Below, piece by piece: positions 21,465 through 29,634 of a DNA stretch of 64,000 nucleotides (its first letter is position 1; each line of letters starts with the position of its first letter). A model generated the notes under the pieces. It was given only the letters and a program-made list of their open reading frames with translations. It had not been told where the DNA came from and made no database searches. Location: positions 124,001-188,000 of the forward strand of contig NC_014011.1 in assembly GCF_000025885.1 (NCBI RefSeq). The letters are read 5' to 3'. The translations under genes were made by a program, and so were the position numbers. The stretch comes from Aminobacterium colombiense DSM 12261 (GTDB taxonomy: Bacteria; Synergistota; Synergistia; Synergistales; Aminobacteriaceae).

Positions 21465-21647
21465 TACTCAGCACTCCTTTCTAAAATTTTGTCAATATGT
21501 CCTTTTCTATTCTATCTCAGTCAACGAGAAAAGAAACATGGTATTTTAGCCAATCTTTATTTTGTTGTTGCATGAAGGTCAAAACAATGGTAATAATTAT
21601 TATTACTAAGTATAATAGGCTTATTCTATTTAAGTGAGGTGTTTGTG

Positions 21648-22739
21648 TTGAAAGGTTTTAATTCCCTTCTCATGTCACGTCTGGGCCCCATTATTACAGG
21701 TGGAGTGGTAGGTCTTCTGGCTGCTCTACTCGTTCGGTGGGGGAATCCGGGAAACATGGGAATCTGCGTCGCTTGTTTCACCAGAGATATTGCCGGAGCT
21801 CTCGGTTTGCACAGGGCTGCGGTTGTTCAATATCTTCGCCCTGAAATAGCTGGTTTTATTCTTGGTTCGTTTGTTTCTGCTCTTGTGTATCGTGAGTATG
21901 TTCCCCGAAGTGGTTCAGCTCCTGTCATTCGATTCTTTTTAGGAATGTTCGCCATGATCGGGGCCCTTGTCTTCCTTGGTTGCCCCTGGCGTGCCTATCT
22001 TCGTCTTGCCGGCGGAGACTGGAATGCTATTGCAGGTATTGCGGGATTGGTTGCGGGTATAGGCATTGGAATTGTTTTTCTGTGGAAGGGATTCAGCCTG
22101 GGACGTTCTTATGAAGCTCCCAAGGGGACTGGTTACTTTATGCCAGTAGCTGCTATTGCGCTGCTTGTTCTTGTGATCATGGCTCCTGCCTTTGGCAAAG
22201 ATGGGACTGGTCCCATCTTTTTCTCAGAGAGCGGTCCTGGCTCCGCTCACGCTCCCATAATCATTTCCCTCATCGTTGGCCTGCTTGTGGGCTGGATGGC
22301 TCAGAGAAGCCGTTTTTGCACCGTAGGAGCTATCCGTGACCTTGTCATGGTGCGGGATTCTCACCTTTTCAATGGCGTTTTAGCCTTTATTGTTATAGCT
22401 TTTGCAACGAATATTGTTATTGGCAAGTTTCATCCTGGCTTTGAAGGTCAGCCTATAGCCCATACCAATACTCTCTGGAATTTCATGGGGATGGTGCTTT
22501 CAGGATTGGCCTTTACTTTAGCTGGCGGTTGTCCTGGCCGTCAGTTGATTATGAGCGGCGAAGGTGACGGCGATGCGGCAGTCTTTGTGTTTGGCATGCT
22601 TGTGGGAGCGGCTGTGAGCCATAATTTCAGTTTGGCGAGTTCTGGAGCAGGCCCAGCTGCCTTTGGCCCTTCAGCAACAATAGTGGGTCTGGTTTTTTGT
22701 TTGGCCGTTGGCTTGATCATGAGGCAGCGTCTTAATTAG
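21648..22739 (+). CDS. yedE: YedE-family selenium/sulfur transporter
   Basis: This roughly 363-residue polytopic protein is of the YeeE/YedE family. The paired pore motifs are GNMGICVACFTRDIAGALGLHR near the N-terminus, FLGCPWRAYLRLAGGDWNA, SRFCTVGAIRDLVMVRD and LAGGCPGRQLIMSGEGDGDA, all with conserved Cys. The subfamily with this N-terminus is the one tied to selenium metabolism (seleno_YedE), and the TusA-like partner 12 bp downstream fits. The start is uncertain: GTG 21639, GTG 21645 and TTG 21648 are in frame. GAGGT at 21636-21640 gives the best spacing for the TTG. It would import selenium or reduced sulfur compounds. Confidence 0.87.
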   Translation: MKGFNSLLMSRLGPIITGGVVGLLAALLVRWGNPGNMGICVACFTRDIAGALGLHRAAVVQYLRPEIAGFILGSFVSALVYREYVPRSGSAPVIRFFLGMFAMIGALVFLGCPWRAYLRLAGGDWNAIAGIAGLVAGIGIGIVFLWKGFSLGRSYEAPKGTGYFMPVAAIALLVLVIMAPAFGKDGTGPIFFSESGPGSAHAPIIISLIVGLLVGWMAQRSRFCTVGAIRDLVMVRDSHLFNGVLAFIVIAFATNIVIGKFHPGFEGQPIAHTNTLWNFMGMVLSGLAFTLAGGCPGRQLIMSGEGDGDAAVFVFGMLVGAAVSHNFSLASSGAGPAAFGPSATIVGLVFCLAVGLIMRQRLN

Positions 22740-22751
22740 GAGGCATGGATA

Positions 22752-22970
22752 ATGAGTGAGTCAATTATTGTGGATGCACGAGGCCTTTCTTGTCCTCAAC
22801 CTGTGCTGGAAACCCGAAAAGCCCTTAAAGATCTTTCTGGAGGGCAAGTTGAAATTCTTGTTGATACAGTAACATCTCGAGAAAATGTTGCCCGTTTCGC
22901 ACGGAGCCAAAAATGGGATGTGGCAATTGAGCAGTATGAGGGTGGATATAAGGTTGTTTTAACAAAATAG
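22752..22970 (+). CDS. TusA/SirA-like sulfur (selenium) carrier protein
   Basis: This 72-residue protein is of the TusA family with the diagnostic D-x-x-G-L-x-C-P-x-P motif (residues 8-17, DARGLSCPQP); Cys15 is the persulfide or selenosulfide carrier residue. TSRENVARFARSQKWDV matches the second half of the fold. A TTAGGAGG RBS overlaps the yedE stop, so the two are co-translated. YedE-TusA pairs pass imported thiosulfate or selenium from membrane to cytoplasm. This protein is shorter than YedF, which carries an extra domain. Confidence 0.92.
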   Translation: MSESIIVDARGLSCPQPVLETRKALKDLSGGQVEILVDTVTSRENVARFARSQKWDVAIEQYEGGYKVVLTK

Positions 22971-24308: not shown

Positions 24309-26618
24309 ATGAAAAAGACATGGCCCGCAAGGTTGCCAAGGGCGTGGATTTTGTTGCTTTTAATGTCTATATTCATGGCTTTGCCCACTGCAGGCTGTGG
24401 TGCGGTGTTGCCCTTGCCAGGCTCAGTGCCTTTGAGCAGCAGCGGTGAGGGAGTTGCTCAGGAGGAGTCTTTTTTCACTCCAGAAAAGATAAAGCAGCGT
24501 ATTGTTGAAATAGAGAAAACCATAGAAACTCTTCAGTCTTCCCAGCCTCTGCTTACTTCTGAGCAGGTGGGGCTAACAGAAGGGGAAATAAACAGTCGAC
24601 TGAAAGGGCTTGAATCCCTTATCGCTCTCTATCAGCGGTATCTTTCTGTTGCTGAACGGGCAAAAAAAACGCAGAGTGATTTTGAGAAGCAGAAGGCGGA
24701 AAGTCAAAAGGATATAGCCGCCCTTGTTCCAGACAATCCCCCCTACTCTCTGAGCTTCTACGAAAACTACCGAGGTCGTCTTGAGACTCTATCTCAGGAA
24801 ATAGATACAGTGACCTACGCCATCCGCCTGTCTGAGAGTGCCATTGTTTCCCTTAAAGAAAAAATTCGCCAGAATGAACAGCATTTAGCCATGCTGAAAG
24901 AGGAACAAACTCCCTCAAAATTCTCAGAATGGGTTCAACAGGAAGTGGAACTAGAAACCGAGAAGAACCGTCTTTCCCTTGCCTTTCGTGAAAAGAATGT
25001 GGAAGAAAGCCGTCTTCGTTTCGATATGCTCGAAATGGAACGGAAAAATGTAACCGAAGGGATGAAGTGGATTGCCCAGCATTTGCAATATGATGAAGCA
25101 GACCTTAAGCGTCAGGTGTCCTTGATCAAGGAGAGAGAAAGGCAGCTTCAGGAACAGGCAGAGACCCTTCGCCAAGAATCAGAGAAGGCGAGGGAGGAGT
25201 TTATGAATGCCCAGGCAAGGGCCGAGTCGGCATCGGATGCTGAGAATCTTTCATTATATCGTGCCCAGCAAAGCGAAAAAGAAACGTGGTACGTCTATTA
25301 TCAGGCTGCCATGGACCAGGCGGAACAGGCACAGGTATGGGCGGAAGAGACGCGGGAAATTTGGGAAACACGCTATTCCCTCCTCGAAAAAAAATTACCT
25401 ACGGCAGAGCTGATAAAAAGACGTACTGAAACAGAGATGCGAAAAAAGGATCTCGACAACGTCCTGCTAGGGTTGCAGAAGATGCAGGTCTCATTGCAAT
25501 CAAGGCTGCTGACCCTCGATAGCTCTATGGCATCGGAAAGCGAGTCCTCTCCTCTATATCGCGTACTGCGGCAGGAGAGCGAAGGGTTGAAAAAACAGAT
25601 AGAACTCAATGGGCAATATATGACGAGCCTGCTGAGCATCTCTATGCTTAACACCCGATTGCTTGAAGAGCTTGAATCACTGTTATCGTCAGTAACCATT
25701 ACTGAAAAGGTTTCGGTGGCCAGCCTTGAGCGGCTGCGAGCCTTTTTAAATTTTCAGCTCTGGTCGGGTGACGGGTTCTCTGTTTCTGTTAAGAAGTTGA
25801 TTTTAGCCGTTATTATCGTACTCCTTGGATTTATAGCCAGCAGAAAAGCGACAAAGGGCGTCAAGCAGTATCTCCTCCGTCGCTTTGAAATGGATCCTAC
25901 AGCAGCCATGGCTATACAGAAGGGCCTTTTTGCTATCCTTGTATTCATATGTATTCTTGCGGCTCTCGATATGGTCAACATCCCATTGACGGCCTTTGCC
26001 TTCTTGGGTGGTGCCCTTGCTCTCGGTGTTGGTATCGGGGCTCAGAATATATTTAGCAACCTCATAAGCGGTCTCATCCTGTTTTTCAGTAAACCCTTCA
26101 GAGTTCACGATATTGTTGAGATCGAAGACATTGTGGGAACAGTTGAGGAGATAGAATCCCGTTCCACCCGAATTCGCACATTTGATAATGTGGACGTTCT
26201 TGTACCCAACCGATATTTTCTCGAGAATCGTATTGTGAACTGGACGCGCACCGATCAGGTCATTCGCGGCAAAGTGAAAGTGGGGGTGGCCTACGGCTCG
26301 CCAGCCAGGGAGGTGGAGCGGCTACTCCTCGTAGCGGCTTCCTCCCACAAAGATATTCTTACTATGCCTGAACCCTACGTTATTTTCAATGATTTTGGTT
26401 CAAGCTCCCTTGATTTCGATCTTTACTTTTGGGTGGATATGAGAAAAGCATCTCGTTTTGTAGCTCAGAGTGATCTTCGGTATAAGATTATAGAGCTTTT
26501 TGAAGAACGTAATATAACAATAGCCTTTCCCCAGCTGGATATTCACTTTGATAAAGATGTTTCTCATAATATGGCCATTGTCAACCACCCACAAGGCAAG
26601 GAGGCGTCAAGGGAATGA
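24309..26618 (+). CDS. MscS-family mechanosensitive ion channel with long coiled-coil N-terminus
   Basis: This 769-residue protein has a hydrophobic leader (WILLLLMSIFMALPTAGCG) that may be a signal or lipoprotein-type peptide, with a weak lipobox (TAGC). It is followed by about 430 residues of charged heptad-rich coiled coil (EKIKQRIVEIEKTIETLQS and onward). The C-terminal 270 residues contain the MscS module: membrane segments near residues 490-515, 530-560 and 570-600 with the pore helix ALALGVGIGAQNIFSNLISGLILFFSKPFRV, and the beta domain VEEIESRSTRIRTFDNVDVLVPN. It resembles MscK/KefA-type large channels that release solutes on hypo-osmotic shock. Its stop overlaps the next start (ATGA). 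Confidence 0.9.
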   Translation: MKKTWPARLPRAWILLLLMSIFMALPTAGCGAVLPLPGSVPLSSSGEGVAQEESFFTPEKIKQRIVEIEKTIETLQSSQPLLTSEQVGLTEGEINSRLKGLESLIALYQRYLSVAERAKKTQSDFEKQKAESQKDIAALVPDNPPYSLSFYENYRGRLETLSQEIDTVTYAIRLSESAIVSLKEKIRQNEQHLAMLKEEQTPSKFSEWVQQEVELETEKNRLSLAFREKNVEESRLRFDMLEMERKNVTEGMKWIAQHLQYDEADLKRQVSLIKERERQLQEQAETLRQESEKAREEFMNAQARAESASDAENLSLYRAQQSEKETWYVYYQAAMDQAEQAQVWAEETREIWETRYSLLEKKLPTAELIKRRTETEMRKKDLDNVLLGLQKMQVSLQSRLLTLDSSMASESESSPLYRVLRQESEGLKKQIELNGQYMTSLLSISMLNTRLLEELESLLSSVTITEKVSVASLERLRAFLNFQLWSGDGFSVSVKKLILAVIIVLLGFIASRKATKGVKQYLLRRFEMDPTAAMAIQKGLFAILVFICILAALDMVNIPLTAFAFLGGALALGVGIGAQNIFSNLISGLILFFSKPFRVHDIVEIEDIVGTVEEIESRSTRIRTFDNVDVLVPNRYFLENRIVNWTRTDQVIRGKVKVGVAYGSPAREVERLLLVAASSHKDILTMPEPYVIFNDFGSSSLDFDLYFWVDMRKASRFVAQSDLRYKIIELFEERNITIAFPQLDIHFDKDVSHNMAIVNHPQGKEASRE

Positions 26619-28270
26619 CCCATCCCCCCTCTCCAGAGAGACTTTTCTCTTTGTGTATTGACCTGGCTTCTATACCAAGCGTAACGGGGCTTCCCGGAAG
26701 GGAAAATGAGGCAGCTTACTCTATATATCGGTGGCTGGGCGACCTGCCCTATTTTCATGAGCGGCCAGAGAATATTTTTTTAATTCCCGTACAGAACGAT
26801 GGGCTCAAACGACATTGTATAGCTGCCCTTGTGGAGGCCGATCCTCCATGCAAGGAGACAATTATTATCACTGGACATTTTGATGTGGTGGATGCGAAGG
26901 GATATGGTTCACTGGAATCCCTGGCCTTTCAGCCCCAAAACTATACAGAGCGGTTGAAGAAAGAGGCACTTCCCAAAGATGCTCGCGCAGACCTCGAAAG
27001 CGGACAGTACCTTTTTGGCCGGGGCATGGCCGATATGAAATATGGCCTGGCCCTGGAAATGGCTTGTATGGAGAAATTCTCGGAGAGCCCTGAAAAAATG
27101 CAGGCGAACCTGCTTTTTCTGGCTGTTTGCGATGAAGAGGGGATGTCTGCCGGAATGCGAAGCGCAGTACCCTGGCTCAGGGGGCTTCAAAAAAAGAAAA
27201 ACCTGGAATATCTTGTCTGCATCAATACGGAACCCTCAGTGGGGGAGTCAGCGGAGAGGGGTTACCTTTATTTAGGAACCATCGGAAAAATAATGCCCCT
27301 TTTCTTCTGTGTTGGAAGAGAAGCCCATGTGGGGGAATATTTTAAGGGCATCAGCGCGCCTCTAATAGCGTCGTGCCTTATGACGCTTGTTGAGGGAGAT
27401 GCTGAAAGCGCGGACAGGTGGAAAGACAGAGTTTTTCCTCCAATGGCGTGTTTAAAACTAGCCGATCTCAGAGAACAGTATGCCGTTACTTTACCGGAGA
27501 TGGCGGTGGTCTTCTTTAATAGTCTGGTAGTGCAGAAAACACCCGGTCAAGTTCTCGAGTATATGAATAAGAGAGCAGAAGAGGCCTTATCGAGGGCTCT
27601 TGCCCTTAGGGAGGGCGAGAGGCAAAAACTGTCTTTCAGTTTCGATCAAGAAGAAAAAGAGCAAGGTGTAGTTCTGACCATTCAAGAGCTTATTCAAGAT
27701 GTGGCCGGGCAAAAGGGTTGTTTGCCTCAGGATGTGCTGGGACCGATCCTTTCAGGAATCCATTCTGGAAAAACCATACATGATCGTGGAATAGAAGCAG
27801 TTCGCCTTCTTTTGCGGGAATCGAACAGACGAGGTCCCCTTATCATTACGGGTTTTCTCCCGCCGTGGTATCCTCCCCGGTGCAACAGGGATGCAAGCCG
27901 GGGAGATAGGGTCATACGCATGGTAGCCCAGGAAATTGTGGAGGAGAGCGCAGATTTAACCGAAGAACCTCTGGAGATAAAAGAGGTCTTTGAAGGGATA
28001 ATGGACCTCAGCTACATGGGGTTTCAGGGAGAAGAACATGATATGGAGGCCGTTGCCGCAAATATGCCTCTATGGGGAGCGGATTATCATTTCCCCGCAG
28101 AAGATTTGCTTTCTCTGGATGTGCCCGTGATGAATCTTGGGCCTATTGGAAAAGATGTCCATCAGTATACAGAACGAATTAATCTCTCTTATGCTCTTCA
28201 CGTGCTTCCACCCCTTTTTGTGAAGGCTATAGAGAGAATTCCAAAGGTCTACAGGTCTCTTTTATATTGA
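26615..28270 (+). CDS. M20-family metallopeptidase, RocB-like
   Basis: This 551-residue protein is of the M20 family in the RocB (arginine utilisation) subgroup. The metal and active-site regions are visible: ITGHFDVVDAKGYG (His and Asp ligands), GRGMADMKYGLALEM (bridging Asp) and LAVCDEEGMSAGMRSAVPWL (Glu-Glu general base and ligand), with a later HQYTERINLSYAL His. M20 peptidases remove a residue or acyl group from peptides or N-acyl amino acids. An AAGGAGG RBS sits inside the MscS gene end, and the two reading frames overlap by 4 bp. It is convergent with an ornithine-cyclodeaminase-like gene, hinting at arginine/ornithine breakdown. Confidence 0.87.
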   Translation: MTHPPSPERLFSLCIDLASIPSVTGLPGRENEAAYSIYRWLGDLPYFHERPENIFLIPVQNDGLKRHCIAALVEADPPCKETIIITGHFDVVDAKGYGSLESLAFQPQNYTERLKKEALPKDARADLESGQYLFGRGMADMKYGLALEMACMEKFSESPEKMQANLLFLAVCDEEGMSAGMRSAVPWLRGLQKKKNLEYLVCINTEPSVGESAERGYLYLGTIGKIMPLFFCVGREAHVGEYFKGISAPLIASCLMTLVEGDAESADRWKDRVFPPMACLKLADLREQYAVTLPEMAVVFFNSLVVQKTPGQVLEYMNKRAEEALSRALALREGERQKLSFSFDQEEKEQGVVLTIQELIQDVAGQKGCLPQDVLGPILSGIHSGKTIHDRGIEAVRLLLRESNRRGPLIITGFLPPWYPPRCNRDASRGDRVIRMVAQEIVEESADLTEEPLEIKEVFEGIMDLSYMGFQGEEHDMEAVAANMPLWGADYHFPAEDLLSLDVPVMNLGPIGKDVHQYTERINLSYALHVLPPLFVKAIERIPKVYRSLLY

Positions 28271-28287: not shown

Positions 28288-28395
28288 TTAGCTTTTGAAA
28301 AACCGCATTATGTACATGATTCCCAGCACAAGGGCCAGGAGAAGATGTAGAAAGAGTCAGGGTGGGCATCGCCCGATCCATTTCTTCCATGTCAT
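28288..28395 (-). CDS. Candidate 35-residue membrane selenoprotein (in-frame TGA, C-P-P-U)
   Basis: Starting at the ATG 28395, the frame reads MTWKKWIGRCPP, then TGA (28359-28357), then LFLHLLLALVLGIMYIMRFF-KS and TAA. If the TGA is read as selenocysteine, the result is a single-helix membrane protein with a basic N-terminus, a C-P-P-U redox-like motif at the membrane face and a basic tail. GAGGA lies 8 nt before the ATG, and the ATG is 15 nt after the stop of the cyclodeaminase-like gene, suggesting coupling. Downstream of the TGA, TCCTGGC and GCTGGGA (28340-28334 and 28327-28321) form a 7-bp hairpin with a 6-nt loop at a distance usual for a bacterial SECIS. A plain stop or decayed gene is the alternative. 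Confidence 0.4.
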
Positions 28396-28410
28396 GGCAT
28401 GTTCCTCACT

Positions 28411-29499
28411 TTAGGGAACGAGATTATTGCGCAGGTGAACCAGAAAATCCTGTACGTTGGTAACGATAGGTGTTACGGACAGGCTTCCCCTGTCGCGGAG
28501 TTTGTTCACTGCAAATTCTGAAACGTCAATGGAGTAGAAGTATACAGGCCGGATGCGCCCTTCCCTATTGACATAACAGGGAGTGATATTTCCAGTGGCA
28601 ATAGTGTGGAGCTGAGTAGCCAGGGCTATGACGGTGGTAGCTTTTTTTGTACAGGCTCTCATGGCATCCTGAGCGTCGTAGACATTGCCAATAACGGTTG
28701 GCAGCGGGCCGTCGTCACGGATAGATCCGGCAAGGATTACCGGGATGCCTTTTTTTATGGCTGAATACATAACGCCGTCATTAATATTTTCCTCTTCTAT
28801 GAATTTTTCAATGGAACCGTATTGCAAAACAGTGTTTATAAGATCAAGATGGTGATAATGGCCGAGGGGACGCTGTTCCTGGGTATAGATATCTTGTCCC
28901 AAGGCCGTTCTCTTCATGCTTCCTTCCAGATCGTGGGTTGCCATGGCGTTTCCGGAGAGTAGCGCATGGGCATATCCGTGTTCGATAAGTTCAGATAGAG
29001 CCTTTTTGGAGTCGTGATCGAATATCACAGCTGGGCCAAGGACCCAGATAATATAACCGTGGTCACGCTCGTATCGCATGAGTTCGTAAAGGTTGTCGTA
29101 ATCCCGGGAATAGGCCGTTTCACGGGAACGCCCGGTGCGGAAAGAAAAGACGTCGCCGCTTTCTTCGGGCATGGCAAAGGGGGTTGCATGGAGGTAAATT
29201 CCGTAACGGCCATCTTCTGAGCGGCCTACGATGACTTTGTCCCCTACATGAAGATTACGAAACTCGACAGCTTCGATTATTCCCTCGTTTCGCACGACAG
29301 GAACACAGTCCATGCGACTTTCCCTTACAAGGGACCATTGGCTGTTGACTTTAAAATATTCAGGATAAATAGATAAGGCATGATAACCTGGTGGTGCTAC
29401 TCCTTCCGCTTCAACTTTGCATATTCCCGCATCAGGAGCTGAAACAAAAGGCTCTTTATCGAAGTTTGGTTCGACATATATTGGCAACTGAAAAGCCAT
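28411..29499 (-). CDS. TIGR00300/LOR-SDH family protein, ornithine cyclodeaminase-like
   Basis: This 362-residue protein matches the TIGR00300 (LOR/SDH bifunctional region) family, whose archaeal member from Methanococcus is an alternative ornithine cyclodeaminase and whose cyanobacterial relatives are fused to arginine dihydrolase. Recognisable parts are ALSIYPEYFKVNSQW near the N-terminus, VVGPAVIFDHDSKKAL-like VLGPAVIFDHDS, HALLSGNAMATHDLE (NAD-binding region), LGHYHHLDLINTV, ILAGSIRDDGPLPTVIGNVYDAQDAM and AIATGNITPCYVN. The frame opens at 29565, but GAGGAGG lies upstream of the ATG at 29499. The expected reaction is ornithine to proline plus ammonia with NAD. It sits beside a RocB-like peptidase gene. 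Confidence 0.85.
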   Translation of the reverse strand: MAFQLPIYVEPNFDKEPFVSAPDAGICKVEAEGVAPPGYHALSIYPEYFKVNSQWSLVRESRMDCVPVVRNEGIIEAVEFRNLHVGDKVIVGRSEDGRYGIYLHATPFAMPEESGDVFSFRTGRSRETAYSRDYDNLYELMRYERDHGYIIWVLGPAVIFDHDSKKALSELIEHGYAHALLSGNAMATHDLEGSMKRTALGQDIYTQEQRPLGHYHHLDLINTVLQYGSIEKFIEEENINDGVMYSAIKKGIPVILAGSIRDDGPLPTVIGNVYDAQDAMRACTKKATTVIALATQLHTIATGNITPCYVNREGRIRPVYFYSIDVSEFAVNKLRDRGSLSVTPIVTNVQDFLVHLRNNLVP

Positions 29500-29634
29500 T
29501 TCATATTCCTCCTCAAGATGATTATGTAAAATAAGCAAAATTGCTACAATTTCTGATTGCATCACTTAATGCTTTGTCTGTACAATGAACATACTGATTA
29601 TAACCTATATCATAAATCATTTAGGAGGTGGTAG

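Follow-up and report, generated by a model that had tools for sequence, protein, structure and literature searches.

Several families of bacterial selenoproteins carry a Cys-x-x-Sec motif, among them GrdA, a SelW-like protein, a DUF1858 protein and the CC/Se motif family NF041239 (PMC13188914, Table 1). The family described here resembles these catalogued proteins in its Cys-x-x-Sec motif, in-frame UGA and putative SECIS element, but it has no sequence match to them and its members are only 34–49 residues long, with a single membrane helix each; they contain no known domain, and we could find no Cys homologue. The likeness to thioredoxin-type CxxC and UxxC sites is one of analogy only. A thiol/selenol couple, a two-residue spacing and a position at the N-terminal end of a helix are common to both, whereas the new family lacks the thioredoxin fold and its helix is a predicted membrane anchor; the peptide of the anaerobe Aminobacterium colombiense, with 35 residues, one hydrophobic helix and no Pfam match, is too short to form that fold. 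A third comparison is with selenoproteins linked to metals and metalloids, namely Sec-containing arsenite methyltransferase (NF008823), the Sao proteins and the MerT-like proteins with a C/SxxU motif (PF02411). The shared elements are an arsenic or metal context, seen in one clade of the new family (f1), and Sec as a possible soft-metal ligand or redox residue. However, the sequences are unrelated, the family gene encodes a separate microprotein adjoining arsM, and no carrier in a second clade (f4) yielded an arsM match.

The family has apparently remained undescribed so far. The six members searched gave no match above the cut-off in NCBIfam r20 or Pfam-A, and a small single-helix CxxU membrane family is absent from the 119-family selenoprotein catalogue (PMC13188914, 2026). 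A literature search for CPPU or small membrane selenoproteins returned nothing relevant, although this search was limited and an earlier description could exist. Application of deep-Sep to Aminobacterium sp. MB27-C1 reported 13 known and 0 new selenoproteins (PMC12013277), and this method discards any candidate with neither a known Sec homologue nor two or more Cys homologues (PMC12013277). Our family does not meet that requirement, with no Cys homologue in 188 Synergistota or 793 other genomes. Because the filter needs Sec or Cys homologues, a Sec-only microprotein cannot pass it, and other tiny Sec-only proteins may therefore hide in selenium-using genomes.

The window, a stretch of 64,000 nucleotides from A. 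colombiense DSM 12261 (NC_014011.1, positions 124,001 to 188,000), had been proposed in an initial annotation to contain a tiny ORF for a membrane selenoprotein, with a C-P-P-U motif, a hydrophobic stretch and a TAA stop. All of these elements are present, but on the minus strand, which the initial annotation left unsaid (Table 1). The ORF has the layout MTWKKWIGRCPP-TGA-LFLHLLLALVLGIMYIMRFFKS-TAA and, with Sec written as U, translates to MTWKKWIGRCPPULFLHLLLALVLGIMYIMRFFKS. We interpret it as a single-pass membrane selenoprotein belonging to a new Synergistota family, with a probability of roughly 0.87; selenium incorporation is inferred, and there are no experimental data. This reading rests on a conserved in-frame UGA, on relatives that show both coding conservation past the UGA and a covarying hairpin, and on the complete Sec machinery of this genome.

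Table 1. Features at and near the selenoprotein locus in the A. colombiense window.
Feature	Coordinates	Strand	Basis or remark
ORF, 35-residue selenoprotein, TAA stop included	28288..28395	-	Syntenic congener homologue keeps the TGA
Start codon ATG	28395-28393	-	15 nt past the TAA of the upstream gene (28413-28411)
C-P-P-U motif	28357..28368	-	Cys codon 28368-28366, in-frame UGA codon 28359-28357; Cys and UGA invariant in the family
Predicted transmembrane helix, ~19 hydrophobic residues straight after Sec	28300..28356	-	Best 19-residue Kyte-Doolittle mean 2.33
SECIS-like hairpin, 7 bp, loop CCUUGU at 28333-28328	28321..28340	-	Corresponding stem covaries in 21 relatives
Terminal TAA	28290-28288	-	
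Shine-Dalgarno-like TGAGGA (contains GAGG), inside the 15-nt gap after the upstream stop	28403..28408	-	Sequence reading
Upstream gene, putative NPN-dependent ornithine cyclodeaminase	28411..29565	-	NF052526, 588 bits, cut-off 440
Next ORF downstream	26615-28270	opposite	
YedE-like transporter	21639-22739	+	Congener G001 also has a YedE/TusA pair
TusA-like protein	22752-22970	+	Paired with YedE

The surroundings of the ORF also agree with what had been proposed: the suggested ribosome-binding site corresponds to a GAGG element in the intergenic gap, the upstream gene is cyclodeaminase-like, and a YedE/TusA pair lies nearby. The cyclodeaminase gene and the selenoprotein ORF probably form one operon, and no same-strand gene follows closely downstream. 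Membrane topology could not be decided by the positive-inside rule, as basic residues flank the helix on both sides. A general functional tie to the cyclodeaminase-like gene was considered and rejected, since homologues of that gene in most relatives have no such ORF downstream. In-frame TGAs in homologues of the cyclodeaminase gene itself were likewise rejected as Sec codons; they fall within the first aligned residues and so were taken to lie upstream of the true start, a conclusion drawn from plus-strand loci, with minus-strand cases not individually checked.

The genome encodes the machinery whose absence would have argued against the initial annotation. It contains selA (573 bits), a tRNA-Sec gene (73 bits; anticodon TCA according to ARAGORN), selB and a Sec-containing selD. 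The ORFs flanking selA encode SelB on one side and a YedF/TusA-like protein on the other, as judged from their translations without a profile search (locus L060), and selD carries one in-frame TGA, with a hairpin just after it, in all three Aminobacterium congeners. With selA, selB, selC and selD all in the same genome, UGA is therefore very likely read as Sec in A. colombiense.

In the congener G001, taken to be Aminobacterium sp. MB27-C1, the sequence downstream of the same cyclodeaminase-like gene reads MKWRKFLASCPP-TGA-LFLYFFLAVVLGIMYIIRLLKN, with the TGA kept and 60% protein identity. The third congener (G002) has no such ORF at the syntenic place and no profile match elsewhere in its genome. 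A first profile made from four sequences led to more members, and a second one built from 24 sequences found matches at E ≤ 0.01 in 27 of 188 Synergistota genomes, distributed over 12 genera and four families (f1, f4, f6 and f7); most of the relatives' genomes are drafts. The window ORF itself matches the family profile at E = 1.4e-15 with one TGA in the match. In each of the 27 matches exactly one in-frame TGA occurs, and it marks the Sec position; this TGA is never swapped for TAA or TAG, while the final stops are a mixture of TAA, TAG and TGA. One member reads CSPU instead of CPPU, and thus Cys and UGA are the constant part of the motif. One further copy (L084, G102:C1:132170-132264) has a one-base frameshift past the TGA, reflecting either an assembly error or a decaying gene, and was excluded from the counts.

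Homologues with Cys in place of Sec (C-P-P-C) had been expected and did not materialize: in the profile search of the 188 Synergistota genomes, neither Cys nor any TGG or TGY codon occupied the TGA position in any member, no homologue with a sense codon there came up, and the family looks Sec-only. A profile search of 793 genomes from two other phyla, comprising 398 centred on a Clostridiaceae genome and 395 centred on a deltaproteobacterial one, also returned no homologue, Cys form included; the centre genomes were picked via a SelA scan, only these two phyla were sampled, and four weak matches were rejected as chance stretches. The family carriers all have a selA match (27 of 27, partial in two drafts), compared with 112 of the 161 other Synergistota genomes, without correction for relatedness. 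In the absence of selenium data, the UGA might be supposed to be read as another amino acid, such as Trp or Cys, through near-cognate suppression. We regard this as highly improbable given the selA match in every carrier, the SECIS-like hairpin in relatives and the lack of TGG or TGY at the position.

The stretch after the TGA evolves as coding sequence under purifying selection in f1 and f4. Over the 20 codons following the TGA, pN/pS in f1 was 0.46 in the reading frame, compared with 1.11 in frame +1 and 2.14 in frame +2; for f4, the three values were 0.38, 0.93 and 2.41. The Aminobacterium pair alone does not single out the reading frame (pN/pS of 0.33 in frame and 0.27 in frame +1). Coding conservation on both sides of an in-frame UGA is thus met by recurrence of the UGA and its flanking protein in 27 genomes and by selection in f1 and f4, so that the loss of conservation past the TGA that would have refuted the initial annotation was not observed. 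A functionless chance ORF or pseudogene might still be suspected in a reading frame of just 35 codons that is absent from the third congener, but the ORF is retained by 27 genomes from four families, with the TGA in every one, and shows covariation and in-frame selection, which leaves this explanation with almost no credibility. Another reading is that of a regulatory leader, in which a short Pro-Pro-stop peptide stalls the ribosome and the hairpin then controls the next gene. In favor of such an arrangement, the TGA taken as a stop leaves a short peptide with CPP at its end, and a hairpin comes soon after. However, purifying selection acts on the frame beyond the TGA, a membrane helix is encoded there in every case, and the final stops vary; TAA or TAG never takes the place of the TGA; and a leader in the window copy would have no same-strand gene close behind it to control. 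We therefore consider a leader very unlikely and retain the selenoprotein reading.

The hairpin proposed as a SECIS element was found exactly where the initial annotation had placed it, with the stem TCCTGGC/GCTGGGA. Its 7-bp stem, 6-nt loop beginning 23 nt after the UGA and free energy of -11.2 kcal/mol satisfy the stem, loop-size, distance and stability criteria of a published bacterial SECIS model, which calls for a stem of 4–16 bp and a loop of 3–9 nt located 16–37 nt after the UGA, with MFE ≤ -7.5 kcal/mol (PMC13188914). Only 1% of synonymous recodings reach the local stability of the window hairpin. Covariation was assessed in 21 relatives whose sequences align without gaps, in which a 7-bp stem encloses a 4-nt loop that likewise starts 23 nt after the TGA. 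In this alignment, 92.5% of cells are paired, and both sides have changed in 4 of the 7 pairs; none of 500 shuffles equalled the real alignment in pairing, in double changes or in covariation score, and versions of the stem slid along the alignment scored lower in both pairing and covariation. RNAalifold recovered 6 of the 7 stem pairs.

The reservation that the loop lacks an early G proved correct for the A. colombiense copy, whose loop (CCUUGU) fails the loop-G criterion of the published model (PMC13188914), but it does not extend to the congener or to the main hairpin register of the family. The loop of the congener MB27-C1 (CGUUGU) meets this criterion, and each of the 23 members sharing the main register has a G among its first two loop nucleotides; two f7 members do not fit this register. 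At the codon level, the difference corresponds to Val GTT in the congener and Leu CTT in A. colombiense. Since some documented SECIS elements do not conform to the standard model (PMC13188914), the missing G weakens the claim for the A. colombiense copy and not for the family, and it bears on whether this copy is decoded efficiently. These observations raise the alternative that the family consists of true selenoproteins, while loss of the G from its SECIS loop has left the A. colombiense copy decaying or poorly decoded. The contrast with MB27-C1 and with the G shared by the main-register loops speaks for this alternative, but the copy retains an intact ORF, its stem exceeds 99% of synonymous recodings in stability, and non-standard SECIS elements are known. 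Decay or poor decoding thus seems unlikely, although it cannot be dismissed, and we continue to favor a decoded selenoprotein at this locus.

The genomic neighborhoods of the family differ among clades. Copies in f1 lie in arsenic clusters, in several of which arsM adjoins the ORF in the same orientation; the clusters also contain arsR and genes for an ArsE-like thioredoxin and a SaoE/ArsP-like permease, with arsC in one. An arsM gene is present in 10 of 11 f1 carriers versus 7 of 72 f1 non-carriers, with the f1 total counted from ranges of genome labels and relatedness not corrected for. Within Aminobacterium, arsM is found in both carriers and missing from the non-carrier, but it is located far from the ORF. 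In f4, the gene for an HdeD/DUF308 membrane protein begins 0–16 nt downstream in all 12 loci examined (L096 and L099-L109), forming a tight operon, and in five f4 loci a redox pair, TlpA-like and CcdA/DsbD-like, is encoded close by. Three side observations concern f1 copies and arsM. Several f1 copies (L062, L064, L066, L068, L069, L070, L072 and L073) are preceded by a TAT(A)AT-like sequence that runs straight into a CCCC-AGGGGGT palindrome overlapping the Shine-Dalgarno element, for example TATAATACCCCCAGGGGGTGAT, which suggests that they have their own promoter with an operator; the palindrome resembles operators of the CsoR/CstR type. At one locus (L093, 6395-7648, minus strand), an arsenite methyltransferase fused to the arsenic-resistance acetyltransferase ArsN2 adjoins the family gene. 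Several Synergistota arsM homologues also contain an in-frame TGA (G012, G015, G030, G007, G150, G142 and others), which is no surprise given that a Sec form of arsenite methyltransferase is known.

Because the neighborhoods differ, no single function follows from them. The features shared across clades are a membrane location and thiol chemistry, which favors a Cys/Sec redox or soft-metalloid-binding element. Under the model we propose, SelB and tRNA-Sec would decode the UGA as Sec, a step that is inferred without any sign of translation past the UGA, and the peptide would then insert into the cytoplasmic membrane, which is also inferred. Cys10 and Sec13 would be placed where the helix begins, at the membrane surface, a position comparable to that of the CxxC at a helix N-terminus in thioredoxin, and the peptide may act as a minimal redox or metalloid-binding element that serves partner proteins. 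Likely partners in f1 would be the arsenic system (ArsM, ArsR, the ArsE-like thioredoxin, the SaoE/ArsP-like permease and ArsC), and in f4 the HdeD/DUF308 protein encoded directly downstream; the partner in Aminobacterium is unknown. The redox or metalloid role is a tentative inference to which we give slightly less than even odds. A broader reading is possible but more speculative, in which these are Sec-obligate one-helix membrane microproteins with no Cys form, minimal selenol redox or metalloid-binding peptides taken on as partners by a variety of membrane and detoxification systems.

In summary, our analysis extends by one family a selenoprotein catalogue that was considered well mined, and it shows why such families get missed. 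If our interpretation is correct, a Sec-obligate family has escaped ORF callers as well as selenoprotein finders that filter by homology. The place of the gene in f1 arsenic operons makes a physiological test direct, and the family would offer a very small system for asking why Sec, and not Cys, is required.
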